From Flavobacterium sp. J372 (GTDB taxonomy: Bacteria > Bacteroidota > Bacteroidia > Flavobacteriales > Flavobacteriaceae), in assembly GCF_024699965.1 (NCBI RefSeq), contig NZ_JAJOMZ010000004.1, positions 3,259,600-3,323,599 on the forward strand: a stretch of DNA of 64,000 bases, in the 5' to 3' direction. The notes under the pieces are model-generated. The model was not told the origin of the DNA and did no database searches. It was given only the letters and a program-made list of their open reading frames with translations. The position numbers were made by a program, and so were the translations under genes. Shown here one piece after another: positions 10,545-57,568 of the stretch. Every line of letters begins with the position of its first letter. Within the stretch, counting starts at the first letter, position 1.

Positions 10545-12637
10545 ATGATAGTAGTGATTGCAGAAAAACCAAGTGTTGCACGCGAAATTGCCCTAGTGCT
10601 TGGTGCCATGGAAAAAAAAGACGGCTACTCGCAGGGAAATGGCTATCAGATAACCTGGGCTTTGGGGCATTTGGTTGCCCTTGGCATGCCGGAAGATTAC
10701 GGCATTAAAGGATTTCTGGCGGAATCCCTGCCAATACTGCCAAATCCCTTCTTATTAACAGGGCGGAAAATACGCAAGGATAAGTCTTATGTTGCCGATC
10801 CGGGTGCTGCAAAACAATTGAAGGTAATCGATCATTTATTCAAGGCTTGCGAAAGTATTATTGTTGCAACAGATGCGGGACGTGAGGGAGAATTGATTTT
10901 CCGGTATATATACGATTACCTTAAATGCCAAAAACCATTTAAGCGCTTGTGGATAAGTTCACTAACTGAAAAAGCGATACGGCAAGGGTTCGCCAACCTG
11001 AAGGGAGGTAGTGAGTTCGACGGGCTTTACTCCGCTGCCCAAGGCAGAAGCAAGGGTGATTGGCTGGTAGGCATCAATTCTTCCCAAGCGCTCAGCATAA
11101 CCGCAGGCAGCGGTGTATATTCCTTGGGAAGAGTACAGACACCCACTCTCGCCATAATCTGCAAAAGGTTTTTGGAAAACAGCACTTTTAAGGCAGAAAC
11201 ATATTGTCAGGTCCAATTGGGACATCAAAAGAACGGCACGGACTTTAAAAGCCTATCATTAATCAACTGGGACGGTAAAAAGGCAGCGGAAGATGTATTG
11301 AGAATGGTGCAACGCATCGGCATAGCAACTGTACTGTCAGCGGATAATAAAACCATTTCTGAACAGCCGCCGCTATTGTTTGACTTAACAGGCCTTCAAA
11401 AGGAAGCAAACAAGCAGCTTGGCCTTTCCGCAGAAGAAACGCTGAATATTGCCCAAGGCCTATATGAAAAAAATTCATCACCTATCCCCGCACTGGCAGC
11501 AAGTACATCCAGGAGGACATGTGGAGTGAAGTACCGAAACTTATAAAAGCTTTGGAAACCAGGCCATCTATTGGATCGGTGATTGGCAAGCTTAAGCTTG
11601 GGAGGCTGAATAAGCGCATAGTCAATGATATAAAAGTGACCGACCATCATGGGCTATTGGTAACCGAGAAAATTCCGATATCCTTATCAGCAATGGAAAA
11701 TTTGATCTATGATATGATTGCCCACAGGCTACTTGAAGCAGTTTCTGAAGCGTGCACTAAAAAGGTAACAGAGGTTATCCTTGAGGTGTCAGGTACTACT
11801 TTCGTCAGCAAGGGAATAGAAGTGCTGATGCCAGGCTGGCGTGCAGTAAAAGGTAGATATGACGATGAAGAAAGTGCCTCATTACAGGTCTTGCCGGAAA
11901 TTGCAGTTGGTGATGAAATCAAGATAAAAAGCACTGAAGTGCTGGAAAAGAAGACAAGTCCTCCAGCACTATATACTGATGCAAGTTTATTGGCTGCCAT
12001 GGAACATGCCGGAAGAGCAATAGAGAATGAACACGAGCGAAAGGCAATCCAGCTCATTGGAATCGGCACTCCGGCTACCCGTGCGGCCATCATCGAAACG
12101 CTTTTATCAAGATCGTACATTCAGAGGACTAAGAAATCGCTTATTCCCACGGAAAAGGGACTTAAAGTTTATGACCTCGTTAAAGATAAAAGTATTTCAG
12201 ATGTGGCTATGACAGCGCAATGGGAGCTTGCTTTAGAGAAAGTTGAAAATGGCCAGCTCAGCCTGGATGTTTTTCAGCGGGAGATGGAGCAGTACGCTAC
12301 GACTATAACCGGTGAATTGCTATCGAGCACAATACATAAAGAAAAACATCCTGATCTCACCTGCCCAAAATGTAAAAAGCACAAACTTCAGTTCAGGGAT
12401 AAGTTAGTCAAATGCCCTTCAGCTGACTGCAATTGGGTACAGTATCTAAAGGTCTGTGGTGTCCATTTAAACTATGCAGAAATAGAACAGTTGGTACAGG
12501 CAGGGAGAACCCACCTTATAAAAGGAATGGTTAGCAAATCCCAAAAAAATTCAATGCCTTTATCGTTCTCGGCGAGAATGCCACGACCTATTTTGAATTT
12601 GAAAAACCAGCCGGAAGAAAGGCATAAAAAAATCTAA
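10545..12637 (+). pseudogene. topB: DNA topoisomerase III (one-base frame break)
   Basis: A type IA topoisomerase of about 697 residues after repair, able to decatenate and relax DNA during ICE transfer. Visible features are the Toprim opening (VIAEKPSVAREIA), the Toprim acidic motif (DAGREGELIFRY) and the signature SLGRVQTPTL. The active-site block FITYPRTGS falls exactly at the frame break near 11468-11474: a run of seven A should be eight, which restores YEKKFITYPRTGSKYI and joins the two halves. A C-terminal zinc-finger-like CPKCKKH…CPSADC segment is present. Breakage at a homopolymer within the catalytic core argues for a sequencing error. DUF1896 starts one base after its stop. Confidence 0.85.
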
Positions 12638-49932: not shown

Positions 49933-50015
49933 AAGCAACTCTGAATATGAAATTATTCACTTTGTTTTCTAAAAAGTTATAGATTTGGGTTTATATAAAA
50001 TCTAACACAATACTT

Positions 50016-50483
50016 ATGGATATTCGGAGGCCGTATCTACAGGAAGGTAGATTAGCTGATATAATTGCTTTGATTCAAGTTTTGGCACTAGACAAAAGGG
50101 GGCATCGAGGAGAAAATGGTTTGAGAGAAGAGCTGAATGGCAAACCAAAATCTGCTGAATCATGGACTAACATCGCAATCTCTCACCCAGAATTTTTTAG
50201 AGCAGATCAGACTGTCGAATATGGGATTTCGCTGATAGCGAGGCATGTTATTGATAGAAATGAAAAGGGAGTACGTGATGTCCCACTAGAATTAATAAAA
50301 AAACTGATTGAAATTGCAATAGAATTACATGACCGTCAAAAGGAGCGGGCTGATCGTTGGAAAATTTGGCTGCCGGTAATTGTCGTAATAGTTGCGGGCC
50401 TAATAAACGTCATAGTAACTATTTCAACATCTGACAACAGGGCCGATAAAAAAGATTCCTGTAAGATAGAAGCCTCCGAATAA
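50016..50483 (+). CDS. Small protein with C-terminal membrane anchor, unknown
   Basis: An intact 155-residue protein. The N-terminal ~110 residues are soluble and helical (RRPYLQEGRLADIIALIQVL…LREELNGKPKSAESWTNIAI…) and look like a helix-turn-helix or adaptor module. One strong transmembrane helix (WLPVIVVIVAGLINVIVTI, about residues 122-140) and a short polar tail follow. A TAGATTTG promoter box stands at 49980-49987. Its stop abuts the stop of the convergent PfkB gene with no gap. It could be a membrane effector or anchor of the adjacent system, but strand and promoter are separate, so this is only a suggestion. Confidence 0.5.
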   Translation: MDIRRPYLQEGRLADIIALIQVLALDKRGHRGENGLREELNGKPKSAESWTNIAISHPEFFRADQTVEYGISLIARHVIDRNEKGVRDVPLELIKKLIEIAIELHDRQKERADRWKIWLPVIVVIVAGLINVIVTISTSDNRADKKDSCKIEASE

Positions 50484-51533
50484 CTATAAAATGGATTCGA
50501 AACAGAAGTCATTGATAGTTAGAATATCAATATGCGAGCTATGGATATTGGTCTTGTAAGAAATATTATGCAATATGCAATCTACCATAGTAGTAACAGA
50601 CTTCAGATCCAGATTGTACATGGCACCCCGAGCACCATCATATAGACAATTAATAGCACCTAAAATTTGTCCGATTTTTAGAGATTGTTGAATTTCTTCC
50701 GTACTTGCATTATAAAACGAATTCGCACCATCAAATGCTAGTTCGTTTATAATTCCTGCGGTACACCAGTCTCCGGCTCCTGCACTATCGGTCCAATTAT
50801 CTAACTTATATGCTGGATTATACATCCATTTATTATTGTTTCTATTCTTAATTCTAAATCTCAGCCCATCTTCACCTAATGTTTCAATTTCCAAAGGAGC
50901 ATTTGGTTCGGGATATAAGGTTTCGTAGTTTGAAATCCTGTCTTTGGAAAATTTTACAATGTCTGAAATCGACAGGCATTCCTTAAATTGCTTATTATCG
51001 ACAATCGAAGAGGGTTCAAATACAATGACAGCGCCTAAACCTTTATAATATTTAGCTAACTCAATGGATGATCTGTTGACTCTGTCGAAGTAAAACGCAT
51101 TGCATGATCTCTTTTTAGAAATTATGTCTTTCACGGACGATGCTAACACTGGCTTGTAAGACGGTAGCCATATGTTGGTTTGAGGTATTTTAAATTCAAA
51201 TTTATGCTTTGGTTTTCCATCTCCATCTTTGAGAATCCTATGGATAATAATAGGTGTAACTCCATCATCAGTCATAGAAATCAACTCTGTATTGATTGAA
51301 AAATTAGCGAAATCATATAGAAGTTTTTCAGCGGCAGAGTTGTCGTTCAACCTCGCAATCGGGTTTGAAGACCAGCCTAAGAATGATAGGATTGCTAAGA
51401 CATTACCGCATGAGCCACCTGCACATAATTTCGCAGGAGTAGATGGGCTACCATTAACGATGACGTCAAGGGCAACTAGACCTGCTCCTACAGCGATAGA
51501 TTTGTTTTGTGTGCTTTTTCTTATACTATTCAT
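50484..51533 (-). CDS. PfkB-family carbohydrate/nucleoside kinase
   Basis: An intact 349-residue ribokinase-like kinase. N-terminal landmark: AGGSCGNVLAILSFLGW (about residues 38-54), the GG-N-A-L-LG pattern. C-terminal landmark: WTDSAGAGDWCTAGI (about 248-262), the DTxGAGD signature that holds the catalytic Asp and anion hole. The substrate cannot be read from sequence; sugars and nucleosides are both typical. It is the last gene of the leftward six-gene operon, and its start overlaps the preceding gene by eight bases. Confidence 0.8.
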   Translation of the reverse strand: MNSIRKSTQNKSIAVGAGLVALDVIVNGSPSTPAKLCAGGSCGNVLAILSFLGWSSNPIARLNDNSAAEKLLYDFANFSINTELISMTDDGVTPIIIHRILKDGDGKPKHKFEFKIPQTNIWLPSYKPVLASSVKDIISKKRSCNAFYFDRVNRSSIELAKYYKGLGAVIVFEPSSIVDNKQFKECLSISDIVKFSKDRISNYETLYPEPNAPLEIETLGEDGLRFRIKNRNNNKWMYNPAYKLDNWTDSAGAGDWCTAGIINELAFDGANSFYNASTEEIQQSLKIGQILGAINCLYDGARGAMYNLDLKSVTTMVDCILHNISYKTNIHSSHIDILTINDFCFESIL

Positions 51534-52672
51534 GGTATGGCTCTCCAGTGAGCCAAATTACAAAAAGTTCGCTATTTTGTGCACTTTCCTCTAAAGAATT
51601 TAAATCTAAAATTTCATAATCCGGCGAATCCACATTGACAACACCCACACCAATTTTAGGTTCGTTGTTAATGGGATGATTTAAATCATAAGCAGCTAAT
51701 AAAGCTCCAATGGATAATAGCTTACTTGAAAAAGTGCTAATTGCCGCTCTGCAGTCACCTAGTGATTGCATTGACTCCTTATATCTGGCAATGGTAGAGC
51801 ATATTTTTCTGTATGTATCAAATGGATTTTGTTCCGAAACATACATTATATTTTTGAGGTTCGACCAAAAGCTCTTCGAACAGCAATTTGTGATATTCGA
51901 TAATCATATTGTCACCACGACGCGGGTTCTTAGACGGGAAAGGTAATATGGGACATAATTCATCTGGGTCGATAAAGCGAAAAGCCTTGTCGATGTGTGC
52001 ATTTTTATTTTCTCCTAAAATTGGCAGCCAAATGACTGGAGAATCGTGCGACAGATCCAAGCCGCCACCAAATCCTCGGCTGTAGTCTAAATCGGTTTCA
52101 ACCTCTTTACCCTGAATGTTACCATCAAGCGCCGAATTCTCTGCAACGATTATTATAAAGTTTTTCTTAAGCTCATTTTCATCCCTATCGATAAGAAACA
52201 TTATCTTGCCTATGAGTGAAAAGTAAATACTTCTGGGTATTGAGCTTATATCAACTATTACAGTTGGATAATCTTTTATATCTTCAAATGTGGAAATAAT
52301 GTTATCTGATGCCTGTCTCGAGGCAATTTTGCGTTTATTTCTCCCTTTACCTTCCCACATCTTTATAGTTTTTGTGGTAAGCTTGTTATCTCCCAAAACA
52401 CTTTTTAAAAGGTCAAGATTTGTTTCCACCAACTGTTTATAGTTGGTCGCGGACGACGTCCTGCCTTGGTCATATTCAACGAGCAAACAGTCGATTTTAG
52501 TATCAACTTGAAGTTCTTGAATTTTTTTTATAGCGAGATTCATGCGGCTATCAAAACCTTTACCCATGATGTAAAGCGCCTGGTTCGCTTTGGGCAGGTG
52601 CTGTGAAAAAAAAGAATCAAATTCATTATTTTTAATCATCACATAGGGATCCCAGCGTAGCTTTCTTTCCAT
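51526..52672 (-). pseudogene. Unrecognised conserved-looking protein of the operon (one-base frame break)
   Basis: The repaired product is about 381 residues. Removing one A from the run of five near 51850-51854 (T on the plus strand) changes …VEPQKYNV to …VEPQNIMYVSEQNPFDTYRK and joins the two pieces into one protein that ends WLTGEPYHE. The N-terminal part has alternating hydrophobic strands and helices (ALYIMGKGFDSRMNLAIKKI, then KIDCLLVEYDQGRTS, and YPTVIVDISSIPRSIYFSLI), which suggests a Rossmann-like sensor or enzyme fold. I cannot name the family. The spacing is tight: six bases after the ATPase gene, eight-base overlap with the kinase gene. Confidence 0.55.
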
Positions 52673-52677
52673 TTACC

Positions 52678-54574
52678 TTAAATTATTATTTTTAATAAAT
52701 CGTCTGGCGTTCTGGGACGCCAGCCGCCATAGGTGTAGGGTAGGTTATATTTATTACATAACCACCTATTCAAATACATTACCATCCACTTATCTCCTTT
52801 TTTACCTTGATTTACATCCGTCTCAATTTCTATTAAATTATAGGCTACGCAAGAAGATAATACATTTCTGAGCAAATCAAACCTTTGGTTTGTAATCCAG
52901 GGCTCTTCGTCTATAAGACTGGGTGTTTTATTAAGTTTAATACCAATACCTGTAACTCCGGGAGCGTAGGGCGCGTTCATCTTATATGTCTCTTTATGAG
53001 CCATCTCCCCGAAAGCTATTAAAAACTTTATGACAGATTTACTAAATGGAACAATCTTGCTAATTTCTGTCCATTTTTCATCTGTAAGTTTCTTAATGAT
53101 TTCTTCTTGCCTTTGTGCTTTTATGATCAACTCTTCGCCCACAACATTTCTGGAAAGTATCTCTTCGAACAAGCCCGCAGCAAAATTTATAAATTGTTCA
53201 ATATTTGCAGAAGACAACTTTACCATCTTATCAATACCATAATAATAGGGGATACTATAATCTTTAGCTACAAATAATTCAGCTGCACTATTAATGGTAG
53301 AGTTGATTTTATCCTTAATATCAGCGACTGAAAGTGGAAAATCGAATGTTAATTGTGATTTGTTAGAATCTCTAGAGATAATTATTTGAATTGCCTTTAA
53401 TTTTTGAGACATTTCATATGGTGTGCCTGTAATATCATCTGCATAACTAATCCAGTCATCATAACGATTTGTTATGGAGGTGATTTTGGATAGGTATTCC
53501 CTTGAATCACTAATAGATTTTAAAAAGTTGGCTTCATATTCATTTTCGTCAAGATCTGTCTGTATGTAATCTTGGAAGGAATCGATCTGGACCTCATTAG
53601 ATAATTTTGATCTTTTATCTGCAATATTTAGCAGAATGTTTTTCAAATTTTTTAGGATTGTCTCTCCAAAATTGTTCGAGGTTAATTTCTTTAAAATCTC
53701 TGCCTTGGAAAGCTCCCAGTGGCAAATTTTCGTCCGGTTCTAAAGCCTCTAGGCGCTCAGCTATCCAAACATTAGCGGAACTCCTTGCCTCGATAAGATA
53801 TTCTTTAATTATTTTTCTTTGCGAAGGTGACAGTTTATGAGCATCGTCAAGCATAAAAAGAATTTTTTCGCATGCAGCTTCACCTGAATATTGCAGGTTT
53901 TCAGGACTTAAGACCAAGATAGAAAATAGTTCGCTATGCCCTTTGGGCTGGATTTCGGATAAAGGGGCAAAACTATCTAGTGCTTCATAAACTTTTTCTT
54001 CTATTTTTCTGGCCCATTCGAATAAGACATCTCCAGTGCAAGGGAGTTGCAAATCCAAAAAGTAATTTTGTTCGTTGTTATGTGTAAAACTAATGTCTTT
54101 CAGATTTTCCGGAAATTGCGCTTTTTTTAAAGCTATTATTCCCCGTAATGTGGACATAATAATTCGTGCATTCAACAACGCAAAGAACAGTCGTCTCTTT
54201 TGAGAGCTTTCAGCGTTAATGTCTTCCAAAACTGAATAGTTCCTTGCGCAGGTTAAAAACACGCCAAGTAGTGGTATTGCATCGTCAGTTACAACCTTTA
54301 TTTTTTTTAATGAGTTAAATAGATCTTTGTATGTCTTATTCGACCTGTGATTTAATAAAGTTAGCAAAGTGTTAGGCTGAAATATCCTAAGCAGCGAGGT
54401 CTTACCACCTCCTGGAGAGCTGTGTATAAAGTAAATATTCTCCCAAAGTTCATTTTTTTGTTCCTTTTCAATTAGCGTATCAATGACAATGGAACTGTAT
54501 AACCTCAGAAAACTTGAATCAGATTCAATTTTTTCGGAGGCGCGCATTCGAAATGGATTTCTGTAATTACTCAT
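52678..54574 (-). pseudogene. ORC/CDC6-like AAA+ ATPase (one-base frame break)
   Basis: About 632 residues after removing one A from the run of six near 53645-53650 (T on the plus strand), which turns NPKKFEKHSA into NPKNLKNILLNIADKRSKL and fuses two pieces. The N-terminal AAA+ domain has Walker A HSSPGGGKTSLLR (residues 51-63) and Walker B ILFMLDDAHKLS (about 233-244), with a sensor-like NVWIAERLEAL strand. The C-terminal ~300 residues are helical and end in a compact domain (YLNRWLCNKYNLPYTYGGWR). I recall a family of this size, labelled ORC-CDC6-like, next to phosphoribosyltransferase-like genes in predicted conflict systems. It is coupled to the gene before it (ATGA). Confidence 0.65.
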
Positions 54575-55671
54575 TGTTTATGTCTTGATACTCGTGGGAA
54601 TAGTCCTCTATATTTTTTATCATCAGGTAGCCACAAGATTGGCAGTGAATTATTGGGTGCGTTATGCGAGAGCACCAAAGGTAAAGAACATTCGTTGAAT
54701 CCTAAATATGGATGTTCATGTCTCCCCATTTTAAAATGCCTATCTATCACCGTATCATCAAAATATTTCTTTAAAATATTTAAAAACCCATCTTTTTCTA
54801 TAATGTTCCTTTTAATGTCACCACTGATCAATTGCACTGCCTGCACAGTGATATCAACAGTTAGATTATTTTCGGTTTTCCATTGACTGGTAGCTTCTTT
54901 TAATAATTGTATTGACTCTTCGGTAGCTATATAAAAAAGTATATGAATTTCTAAACCGTTCAGGTCTAGGATTGATTTAAGATTTTTTTCTTTTTCAGTT
55001 TCATCTTCCGGATTTCCATATATAGATTTTAAAAATTTATAAATCTTTCCCTTTTTCTCATTCGCCCTAAAATAACTGATGCCACTTGCCGTAAAGTCAT
55101 CAATAAGGAAGATGGAATTGAATTTATTGTTCTCTGGGCTGTCCTTATTTAACTCTCCCAACATATCTTGTGCCTTTTCGTAATTTATCTGGTAGGTGCT
55201 CGAGACCTGCTCATTATTTATATTGCAGGCCCTTCTAAATTGATCGATCTTGCTTCCATCACTTAGTCCGATATAGAGCGTTTGTTTGCTCACCTTCTTG
55301 TATTCGGGACTACCTACGATCTTCTTTATATGATAACTGTCAATATTAGCCTGCTTAGCAGCCTTTTTAATTAAAATAGGATTAATTATATCTGGAAAGG
55401 ATATACTTAATAAATGAAAAACTTCTGAATTGGAGATGAAAATTAACTCTTCGAGGAAAAACTTATAAGCTATTCTTTTTTCTTCATTGCTTTCAAATTG
55501 TTTTAACCATAGTACTAAACTTTCAACGAAACGAATACCAGGTGAAAATTGTTGATACTCGTTATATTTAAAGTTCGCCAAAGATTGCAATAGCGGTCTC
55601 TCCGTGGAGACTTCATCTAAGGTCCAACCCATAATTTGTATTAGCAATTTCTCAGCGAGAGCAGTTCTCAT
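54571..55671 (-). CDS. Phosphoribosyltransferase-like protein (conflict-associated type)
   Basis: An intact 366-residue protein. The central motif IFLIDDFTASGISYFR (about residues 184-199) is the PRPP-binding loop of type I phosphoribosyltransferases (hydrophobic strand, DD, then T-x-S/T-G). An N-terminal helical domain of ~120 residues precedes it, and LYIGLSDGSKIDQFRR (about 129-144) may be the preceding strand/loop. The C-terminus contains a hydrophobic strand and an Asn/His-rich segment. It is larger than purine salvage enzymes, and I recall such proteins as 'PRTase-CE'. It overlaps its neighbours by four bases on both sides. Confidence 0.65.
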   Translation of the reverse strand: MRTALAEKLLIQIMGWTLDEVSTERPLLQSLANFKYNEYQQFSPGIRFVESLVLWLKQFESNEEKRIAYKFFLEELIFISNSEVFHLLSISFPDIINPILIKKAAKQANIDSYHIKKIVGSPEYKKVSKQTLYIGLSDGSKIDQFRRACNINNEQVSSTYQINYEKAQDMLGELNKDSPENNKFNSIFLIDDFTASGISYFRANEKKGKIYKFLKSIYGNPEDETEKEKNLKSILDLNGLEIHILFYIATEESIQLLKEATSQWKTENNLTVDITVQAVQLISGDIKRNIIEKDGFLNILKKYFDDTVIDRHFKMGRHEHPYLGFNECSLPLVLSHNAPNNSLPILWLPDDKKYRGLFPRVSRHKQ

Positions 55672-56510
55672 AGTGAAAATTTTATTTTGAAGAAATTATC
55701 TTTGAACTCAATAGCATTAAAGTACTCTAAGGTTGCTTCTACGCAGTTAACTCCTTTTGACGCTAAATTCCAGCAGGTATATGGATCGGCAGATACCTCA
55801 TTGACACTTAGGGAAAATTCATTAGATAGTAGTTGATAGTCGTTCCCTGGGTATTTGCCCATGTCGCCGATGCACAAGAAATTTCCGATTTCTTTTTGAT
55901 CTGCGAACATATTACGGAAATGTTCAATTGCGTTGTTCTTACTTGTTTTAGCAGAGATGATATCAATAGAATGGCTCGACTCTAAAACCTGAACTTTGAA
56001 CCTGAATTTGTTTTTAGTATAGTCCATCAAAATTCTCTTAATTATATTGGTATTGCCCTTATCGATAATCGAGACTGTTAGTTGTCCGCTTCGTAAATCA
56101 AGTTTACAGAATTTTTGAATAATAGGATTATTGCTCAATGCGCTGGATATTTCCTGAAATAGTTCGTCTTCATTTTCTTTAAGGGGGAGTTGTGAGTCGG
56201 TCAAAAGTCCAATTTGTGAACCGTTATAATAGCCGATAGTTACATGGTTCCAAAATTCTTCAGGGAGGACAGATTGCAGGCTTTCACGAACTGATTTTCC
56301 ACGTCCAGTAATCACACCAAGGTAAATACCTCTCTCAATAAATTGAATTAATTTGTCAGTGACTTCTTTACGTGGAGCGGTAAAGCGCTCTTCTGATGAA
56401 CATAAAGTACCGTCATAGTCCAATAGTAGTCCATGAAATTTCGCTTTCCGTATCTTGGTCACGAACTCTTCATATGATTGGAAGAGTAAGGTATTAATTC
56501 CATCCGTCAA
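55668..56510 (-). CDS. HAD-superfamily phosphatase (Cof/trehalose-phosphatase-like)
   Basis: An intact 280-residue HAD hydrolase. Motif I is LLLDYDGTLCSS (DxDGT at residues 31-35, with nucleophile Asp31), motif II lies in GVITGRG, and the C-terminal motif is FLCIGDMGKYPGNDYQLL (GD…ND). A cap of the HAD-IIB type sits between them. It should remove phosphate from a sugar- or nucleotide-like substrate. The gene overlaps the phosphoribosyltransferase-like gene by four bases and follows the SIS gene by 86. Confidence 0.75.
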   Translation of the reverse strand: MTDGINTLLFQSYEEFVTKIRKAKFHGLLLDYDGTLCSSEERFTAPRKEVTDKLIQFIERGIYLGVITGRGKSVRESLQSVLPEEFWNHVTIGYYNGSQIGLLTDSQLPLKENEDELFQEISSALSNNPIIQKFCKLDLRSGQLTVSIIDKGNTNIIKRILMDYTKNKFRFKVQVLESSHSIDIISAKTSKNNAIEHFRNMFADQKEIGNFLCIGDMGKYPGNDYQLLSNEFSLSVNEVSADPYTCWNLASKGVNCVEATLEYFNAIEFKDNFFKIKFSL

Positions 56511-56596
56511 TGAGTGATTTATTTTACCAAACTTCCTTTGTAGCGCTAATTCGGCCTTATAACTAGTAGTTGTAGATGAATTTATCTTACCAGATT

Positions 56597-57568
56597 TTAA
56601 ATGGTAAAGTTTGCTTCCATAGGATGGAACTCCCGGTCTTCCGGGATCAATTTTTTTCTTTGGCCAATGGCTTCAACCAGATAGAATGATTTAGCTAACA
56701 GATCAATACTCCCATCTGATAAGTTATATTCTGTACTTAAATGAAATACAGGTATGTCATTTGGAATTAAGGCTAAGGTTTTGTCTGCCAGATTTTTTTC
56801 ATCAGGGGTTGTTATGCTTATAATTGCTGTTTGACTTTTCTTCTTATCGATCCAGTTATGTCTTCCATGACCAAAATTTCTATAGTCAGCGACCAGCACA
56901 TTTCCTAATCCCGCTTCTGAAAATTTTGATTCAAGATCTATTGCTACCGGCTTACCCCAGCCGGCATACAAAACTAAAAGGGTAAAATCAGGATAGAGCT
57001 GGGAAACGAAATTGCCGACCTTAGCAAGAAAATCCTGGTTGGGAATTAAATTTCTAATTTCAGGCTTGATGTGGAATATCCTGGAGATTATTACAAAGTA
57101 AGCAATCAAAGAGTTCGTAGCCAGGAATCCATCCTTACCCGCTATGTTTTCAACTTCCAATATTCTGGTCACAGAAAATGCCTTACTTTTCCTTGCAAGG
57201 GGAGAGTCTATCGTGAGGCATAAGGAAAGGATTTTTCTAGGCTCGTTTGAAATTAGCGTGTCAAATGCTGCAAGAATATCTGAATTTCTGCCCCCAGCAC
57301 TAATCAACACGGTCACAGTTTTACTATCAATAGCGTTCTTAATATATTGTAGTTCGAGGGGAGTAATATTCCTAGCTATGGAACCCAGATTTTGTTGATG
57401 TAAAGCAAATAATTCACAAGCCGATGACGAACCTCCACTTCCTATGACATACGTGGGATGCTCAAGCAGGTCTTGTAGCATATCATCAAGATTTGGAATA
57501 GTCGTATTTAAAGCCCACCTGTAAGTATCATTTAATTTCTCTAATTCTTTATGGAATGGTTTGCCCAT
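56597..57568 (-). CDS. SIS-domain sugar isomerase-like protein
   Basis: An intact 323-residue protein with two SIS-type halves. The first has the phosphosugar loop TYVIGSGGSSSACELFALHQ (about residues 39-58) and a second loop VLISAGGRNSDILAAF (about 86-101). The C-terminal half has LVADYRNFGHGRHNWI, recalling the E-x-x-H-G segment of GlmS/AgaS-type isomerases. It is the first gene of the leftward operon. Isomerisation or binding of a phosphosugar is the expected activity; the sugar is unknown. Confidence 0.7.
   Translation of the reverse strand: MGKPFHKELEKLNDTYRWALNTTIPNLDDMLQDLLEHPTYVIGSGGSSSACELFALHQQNLGSIARNITPLELQYIKNAIDSKTVTVLISAGGRNSDILAAFDTLISNEPRKILSLCLTIDSPLARKSKAFSVTRILEVENIAGKDGFLATNSLIAYFVIISRIFHIKPEIRNLIPNQDFLAKVGNFVSQLYPDFTLLVLYAGWGKPVAIDLESKFSEAGLGNVLVADYRNFGHGRHNWIDKKKSQTAIISITTPDEKNLADKTLALIPNDIPVFHLSTEYNLSDGSIDLLAKSFYLVEAIGQRKKLIPEDREFHPMEANFTI

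Follow-up and report, generated by a model that had tools for sequence, protein, structure and literature searches.

A 64,000-nucleotide stretch of the genome of Flavobacterium sp. J372 (contig NZ_JAJOMZ010000004.1, positions 3,259,600 to 3,323,599; hereafter the window) contains a five-gene operon in which three of the five genes are frameshifted. The operon lies on the minus strand, from 57568 down to 50484, and encodes a SIS-HAD fusion protein, a PRTase-CE phosphoribosyltransferase (PRTase), an ORC-CDC6-like ATPase, a tandem CARF protein, and a PfkB kinase. We regard the locus as a damaged copy of a mobile conflict-type system, the assignment to conflict systems as such having a probability of about 0.85. 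The first-pass annotation of this DNA had proposed a conflict system with PRTase-CE and ORC-CDC6-like ATPase components, and this is supported by the matches to PF24390 and PF24389, by the mobility of the set, and by its defence-rich context. That annotation had counted six minus-strand genes; the strand was right, and the number is five, SIS and HAD being one gene.

Relatives were taken from 63 loci, 52 of them obtained by scanning genome contigs with a CARF6 alignment and 11 from plasmids. In most of the 52 genome loci, SIS-HAD is a single protein of about 610–670 amino acids, the intact ATPase has about 620–660 and the intact CARF protein about 360–400; some of these values are too high because of upstream starts. 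In the window (locus L001), the SIS-HAD gene (55668–57568) occupies two frames, with the SIS part at 56597–57568 (Pfam SIS, 3.7e-8) and the HAD part at 55668–56510 (Hydrolase_3, 9.8e-8), the open frame of the latter reaching upstream to about 56672. On the profile of the relatives, the two pieces matched positions 194–314 and 309–636, and the whole SIS frame covered 1–314. Because most relatives encode one protein and the window frames overlap and jointly cover its profile, the SIS and HAD frames represent a single gene. The HAD part was of the Cof/IIB type by family search. The PRTase-CE gene (54571–55671) is an open frame and belongs to its family both by profile (PF24390, 1.5e-24; 87.7 bits against a cut-off of 27) and by its phosphoribosyl pyrophosphate (PRPP) loop, IDDFTASG, whose DDF and G were invariant in 28 aligned relatives. 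The predicted structure of a relative matched type I PRTases. The PfkB gene (50484–51533), a putative sugar or nucleoside kinase with the motif DSAGAGD, is also open; PF00294 scored 22.1 bits (1.1e-4), under the Pfam cut-off of 25.8, and a profile built from its relatives matched fructokinase at 5e-16. Against solved structures, the SIS, HAD, and PfkB profiles were matched at superfamily level only, a single SIS-HAD sequence gave no match, and the best hit of the PRTase profile (E 0.012) was unrelated by name. Active-site residues were conserved in the operon enzymes in alignments of relatives.

The ATPase, of AAA+/STAND type (52678–54574), is split into frames at 53615–54574 and 52678–53646, which scored 46.3 and 40.1 bits with PF24389 (3.5e-12 and 2.7e-10; cut-off 27), placing it in that family, and which covered positions 1–313 and 311–628 of the relatives' profile. 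Of 50 relatives, every one had the Walker motif GxGK, and at least 96% had DD. The next protein had been recorded as unknown; it is indeed part of the operon and is now identified as a tandem CARF protein (51526–52672, frames 51818–52672 and 51526–51846). Both frames were called CARF6 by PADLOC model PDLC01910 (E 2.8e-68 and 1.4e-31), consecutively on one profile, and lay at 5–278 and 280–380 on the relatives' profile. Pfam had no family for either frame, and the CARF profile found nothing useful among solved structures (best E 0.3). A tandem CARF fold was seen in the model of an intact relative, with 6sce, which we take to be Can1, as the best match after VIA re-ranking. By profile and modelled fold, the protein thus belongs to the CARF superfamily; binding of a ligand is predicted only. 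Family searches of the host genome found PRTase-CE, CARF6, and ORC-CDC6-like proteins at this operon alone.

The frames reproduced the overlaps described in the first-pass annotation, of four bases at HAD/PRTase and PRTase/ATPase and of eight bases at the kinase gene, as well as the motifs GSGGSSSA, DYDGT, IDDFTASG, PGGGKTS, LFMLDD, and DSAGAGD; the gap after the ATPase gene, given there as six bases, measured five. What it had overlooked were the frameshifts. The SIS-HAD, ATPase, and CARF genes each occupy two frames, whose profile matches adjoin cleanly; the PRTase and PfkB genes are open. With these three genes broken, the window copy in its deposited form probably does not work, unless sequencing errors caused the frameshifts. 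The operon would then be intact in the living strain, a plausible account that we consider the less probable one. Each break is a clean frameshift near A-runs with no residues lost, the topoisomerase III gene of the neighbouring element is split as well, and one sampled gene elsewhere has frame changes. However, in sampled parts of the host genome only one of 28 comparable genes was frameshifted, against three of five in the operon (in a control genome, 2 of 11 genes, both at one place), and split copies of operon genes also occurred in three other loci (L053, L068, L088). Decay of the window copy is therefore likely. Intact copies were present in many relatives.

The genes had been expected to occur together. 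Linkage was examined directly by six-frame profile searches at a threshold of 1e-8 over the 63 loci, all of which had been located via the CARF gene, so that CARF was present by construction. All five components were found in 60 loci; two of the others were cut by the contig start (L035, L075), and one (L189) had no PfkB within the 16 kb taken. In 50 of 63, the genes shared a strand and ran in the order SIS-HAD, PRTase, ATPase, CARF, PfkB. Locus counts overstate independent events because of the CARF-based selection and of close copies (L045/L046, L061/L062, and several gut Bacteroidales); the co-occurrence of the five genes is nevertheless far beyond chance. Judged by record titles, hosts included Bacteroidota, Armatimonadetes, Acidobacteria, Nitrospirae, myxobacteria and other delta groups, Nostoc, Desulfosporosinus, Phycisphaeraceae, Cenarchaeum, Heimdallarchaeota, and Methanoregulaceae, thus both bacteria and archaea, many of the records being metagenome-assembled genomes with possible binning errors.

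The set proved to be mobile and of a non-housekeeping kind, as had been proposed from the window. CARF was found on 17 plasmid records, eight of them typed as conjugative. In one plasmid (L087) the operon is located between a relaxase/coupling-protein pair and virB11, and in another (L091) it is followed by a caspase-family gene. Viral contigs and phage records yielded no CARF6 relative. In the host phylum, the CARF family (E 1e-8) was found in one of 395 sampled genomes, the window's own, and the most widely shared flanking cluster occurred in only 5 of the 52 genome loci. An ordinary sugar-catabolism operon that came to lie near mobile DNA by chance would account for SIS, PfkB, and HAD, which are mostly sugar-enzyme families. 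This is contradicted by the survey: the enzymes are in near-constant company of the ATPase, CARF, and PRTase-CE, and the operon occurs on plasmids. As CARF is rare and the flanks are variable and rich in defence genes, a fixed-place sugar operon is excluded, and we consider a chance arrangement of this kind very improbable. The same three enzyme classes recur in sugar pathways, such as those of heptose (GmhA/HldE/GmhB) and fructoselysine (FrlB/FrlD). Compared with these, the window has a fused SIS-HAD protein with a HAD part of the Cof/IIB type and no nucleotidyltransferase.

Enrichment of the surroundings in defence genes, which had been suggested as a check, was observed qualitatively. In the flanks of 50 loci, 138 open reading frames (ORFs) matched 225 PADLOC families at 1e-10, compared with three families for a control set of 120 ORFs. 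The control ORFs came from 20 arbitrary stretches, were limited to the family and phylum of the window, and were not phylum-matched to the loci; families were counted here, not members with a match. Among the 25 of the 225 families listed, type I restriction, type IV restriction, mads_2, and PbeA had three members each, and N6_Mtase, among the 25 of 140 Pfam families listed, was found in 3 of the 138 ORFs. In gut and rumen Bacteroidales, differing known defence modules were inserted at one point of the operon, the CARF/PfkB junction. An AbiEi/AbiEii pair was located there in five loci (Pfam-tested in L076, by clustering in L079, L081, L082, and L084, and broken in L079), and in L077 and L080 this position was taken by an ATPase (in L077 an AAA_21 protein by Pfam) with a second protein, RloB-like by eye.

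This context gives good support to a conflict role. For the individual components we propose a tentative scheme, to which we give not quite even odds, with the ATPase and CARF as gate, the PRTase as effector, and SIS-HAD with PfkB (the sugar pair) as antidote. The ORC-CDC6/STAND-type ATPase would sense the trigger, an invader, and act as a switch. The tandem CARF protein would bind a nucleotide ligand and tune the switch, either permitting or ending the response. PRTase-CE would shift phosphoribose from PRPP to a nucleobase or amine target, or might simply drain PRPP. The antidote role, which we infer, would be exerted by an isomerase/deglycase-like and phosphatase protein, SIS-HAD, together with PfkB, undoing or recycling the phosphoribosylated product and so protecting the host. 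In some proteobacterial plasmids a NADAR N-glycosidase may assist removal of the product.

Sister systems were found through the ATPase. Ten genomes, the host's included, had an ORC-CDC6-like match, and six of them were inspected together with one further locus. These predicted ORC-CDC6-like systems (L093, L109, L110, L111, and L113; PF24389/PF24390/PF24408) share the ATPase family with the window operon and combine a DNA methyltransferase, an effector (PRTase-CE, calcineurin-type, or kinase), the ATPase, and a further protein. By Pfam, the methyltransferase adjoins PRTase-CE in L093 and L109 (in the latter recognized by a profile made in this analysis) and a calcineurin-type gene in L110; next come the genes for the ATPase and for a protein of 308–328 amino acids. 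L111 has a calcineurin-type gene, with a methyltransferase-like frame (by eye) 3 kb away. Both L113 and L114 combine a methyltransferase-like frame (by eye) with a fusion of the ATPase and a protein kinase (L113:4885–8504; L114:6560–10270; kinase Pfam-tested in L113), a further variant of the ORC-CDC6-like architecture, and L112 has neither the methyltransferase-like frame nor the fusion. The last protein of L093 has 192 relatives, and in a profile comparison its family aligned with CARF6 over 258 columns (hhalign probability 84, E 7.5e-6), with common motifs such as DISSLP, so that the triad of PRTase-CE, ORC-CDC6-like ATPase, and CARF-related protein is found in both the window and L093. The relationship to CARF is by position only in L109, L110, and L111, and the L113 protein had a weak Csa3_N match (E 0.008). 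Plasmid records searched at 1e-5 contained nothing that matched the CARF-like L093 protein. The ATPase and a CARF-like protein are probably the constant core, with a varying effector. In contrast to these systems, the operon frames in the window contain no DNA methyltransferase in a Pfam scan, and CARF6 is a distinct, longer family; the sugar pair appears to occupy the place of the methyltransferase.

PRTase-CE also links the window to retrons. PRTase proteins are the effectors of type III retrons according to PMC12548924, and the window protein matched PADLOC PRTase_III-A at 1.8e-16. Four loci (L094–L097) resembled those of retrons: their PRTase-CE was recognized by profile, and a reverse-transcriptase-like frame was noticed by eye. 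Unlike type III-A retrons, the window operon has an ATPase and CARF in place of a reverse transcriptase, no such family being found in a Pfam scan of nine window proteins (E up to 1), and a retron identity was ruled out.

On plasmids, the operon has a further partner. A NADAR gene stands beside it in 6 of the 11 plasmid regions chosen via CARF (L088, L091, L187, L188, L189, L191) and in L193, which was chosen via NADAR; four of these seven loci also have a small helix-turn-helix gene. A search of plasmid records with the operon NADAR at 1e-20 gave 10 records, eight of which belong to the 17 carrying CARF; in L192, one of the other two, no operon gene was annotated within 6 kb. NADAR proteins remove ADP-ribose from guanine and serve as antitoxins, according to PMC11125620. 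In DarT-NADAR and YarT-YbiA pairs, NADAR accompanies a ribosyl-transferring enzyme, as in the plasmid operons (PMC11125620). The operons differ in having a PRPP-type PRTase and not an ADP-ribosyltransferase, and the window operon showed no NADAR. The plasmid partner points to a reversal or recycling role of the sugar enzymes. Plasmid rearrangements shift PRTase-ATPase-CARF and SIS-HAD/PfkB as separate blocks: L187 has two PRTase/ATPase/CARF triads with a single SIS-HAD/PfkB pair and NADAR, and L088 likewise has two triads, one cut by the stretch end, around one sugar pair and NADAR.

This arrangement bears on the idea that the sugar pair is itself an effector, draining a phosphosugar or a pool related to nicotinamide adenine dinucleotide while the PRTase draws down PRPP. 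Metabolite depletion is a common defence strategy, and the active-site residues are kept. However, if they were simple drains, the phosphatase and the kinase would work against each other, and one sugar pair per two PRTase-ATPase-CARF sets suits a common service function better; we regard such draining as improbable.

The main rival starts from the CARF ligand: SIS-HAD, PfkB, and PRTase would build a nucleotide-like or sugar-nucleotide-like messenger read by the tandem CARF, and the ATPase would be the effector or amplifier. The window CARF shares a tandem fold with the CARF proteins of type III CRISPR (6sce; Csm6, Card1, Csx1, Cam1) and differs from them in having no nuclease domain. A ligand is required, and its usual makers are scarce among the 31 genomes searched (the host and 30 of the 52 locus genomes). 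The host had neither a Cas10 nor a CD-NTase hit, and a Pfam scan of the operon frames showed no CD-NTase (SMODS). The Cas10 palm model exceeded the cut-off in 4 of the 31 and gave no hit over it in 27, but it was also over the cut-off in 5 of 14 control genomes, Escherichia coli among them; CD-NTase exceeded it in 7 and gave no hit over it in 24. CARF as a part of type III CRISPR or of CBASS (a cyclic-oligonucleotide-based antiphage signalling system) was accordingly ruled out for the host and most of these genomes. That the five genes travel as one operon also favours a messenger made within it. Yet L110 and L111, which have a calcineurin-type gene and neither PRTase nor sugar enzymes, still encode a protein after the ATPase where CARF would stand (related to CARF by position or eye only), so the CARF ligand need not come from these enzymes; moreover, NADAR breaks N-glycosidic bonds and does not make them. 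We consider this messenger rather unlikely.

Another form of the antidote scheme is phosphoribosylation-based immunity, in which PRTase-CE would mark a nucleobase or amine target with phosphoribose, SIS-HAD, PfkB, and the plasmid NADAR would be a dedicated de-ribosylation antidote replacing the methyltransferase of the sister systems, and the CARF messenger would come from neither Cas10 nor CD-NTase. We offer it as a speculative possibility. Several observations weigh against our scheme. NADAR was found in none of the 52 genome loci by profile searches and is therefore not essential. PRTase-CE does not always need the sugar pair, since retrons, L093, and L109 show none, and the pair could equally make the ligand for CARF. 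The Foldseek top 50 for the CARF model contained no CARF protein, with template modelling scores of at most 0.28 and first ranks taken by a universal stress protein and ion cotransporters; the CARF assignment is based on the PADLOC match and VIA re-ranking.

Two variations among the relatives were observed. Many PfkB relatives have a zinc-binding-like element, formed by a CPxCG insertion and a C-terminal CxxC, both of which the window copy lacks. In two Armatimonadetes loci, a protein of the dCTP deaminase/dUTPase fold is encoded between SIS-HAD and PRTase (L051:6256–6918 and L058:6314–6964); it has a C-terminal hydrophobic stretch and was Pfam-tested in L051 and assigned by likeness in L058.

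In the window itself, the region from 9 to 46 kb (9000–46700) is a conjugative element of the Bacteroidota type with topoisomerase III, coupling protein, relaxase, TraG, TraM, DUF4138, and DUF932 by Pfam, its topoisomerase III gene being the one split over two frames (10545–11546 and 11519–12637). Transposase-like frames (by eye) lie between this element and the operon at 47.4–49.7 kb. A convergent plus-strand ORF of 155 amino acids (50016–50483) abuts the end of the kinase gene; it has a probable C-terminal membrane segment by eye, is predicted only, and had no family over the cut-off in Pfam and none in PADLOC or NCBIfam. Beyond the operon, at 58.5 kb, Pfam identifies ice-binding-like, PKD, and secretion-tail domains in one gene.

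Pfam and PADLOC already list the PRTase-CE, ORC-CDC6-like, and CARF6 families. The name CARF6 presumably goes back to the 2020 CARF classification paper, and the -CE names presumably to the Aravind group. Our literature search found no title or abstract describing the five-gene operon, and no description of its NADAR partner; a mention in the 2020 CARF classification or in Ter-system papers is possible. PRTase proteins are named as probable retron effectors, and their mode of action was called unknown in 2022 (PMC9122126). The near-constant coupling of PRTase-CE to a phosphatase, an isomerase/deglycase-type domain, a kinase, and sometimes a NADAR glycosidase provides a direct biochemical handle on its product. 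With a CARF protein in hosts that mostly have no Cas10 and CD-NTase hits, the ligand and its source become testable questions. Comparison with the sister systems raises the possibility that methylation and metabolite reversal are exchangeable routes to self-protection, both built on one ATPase/CARF core.

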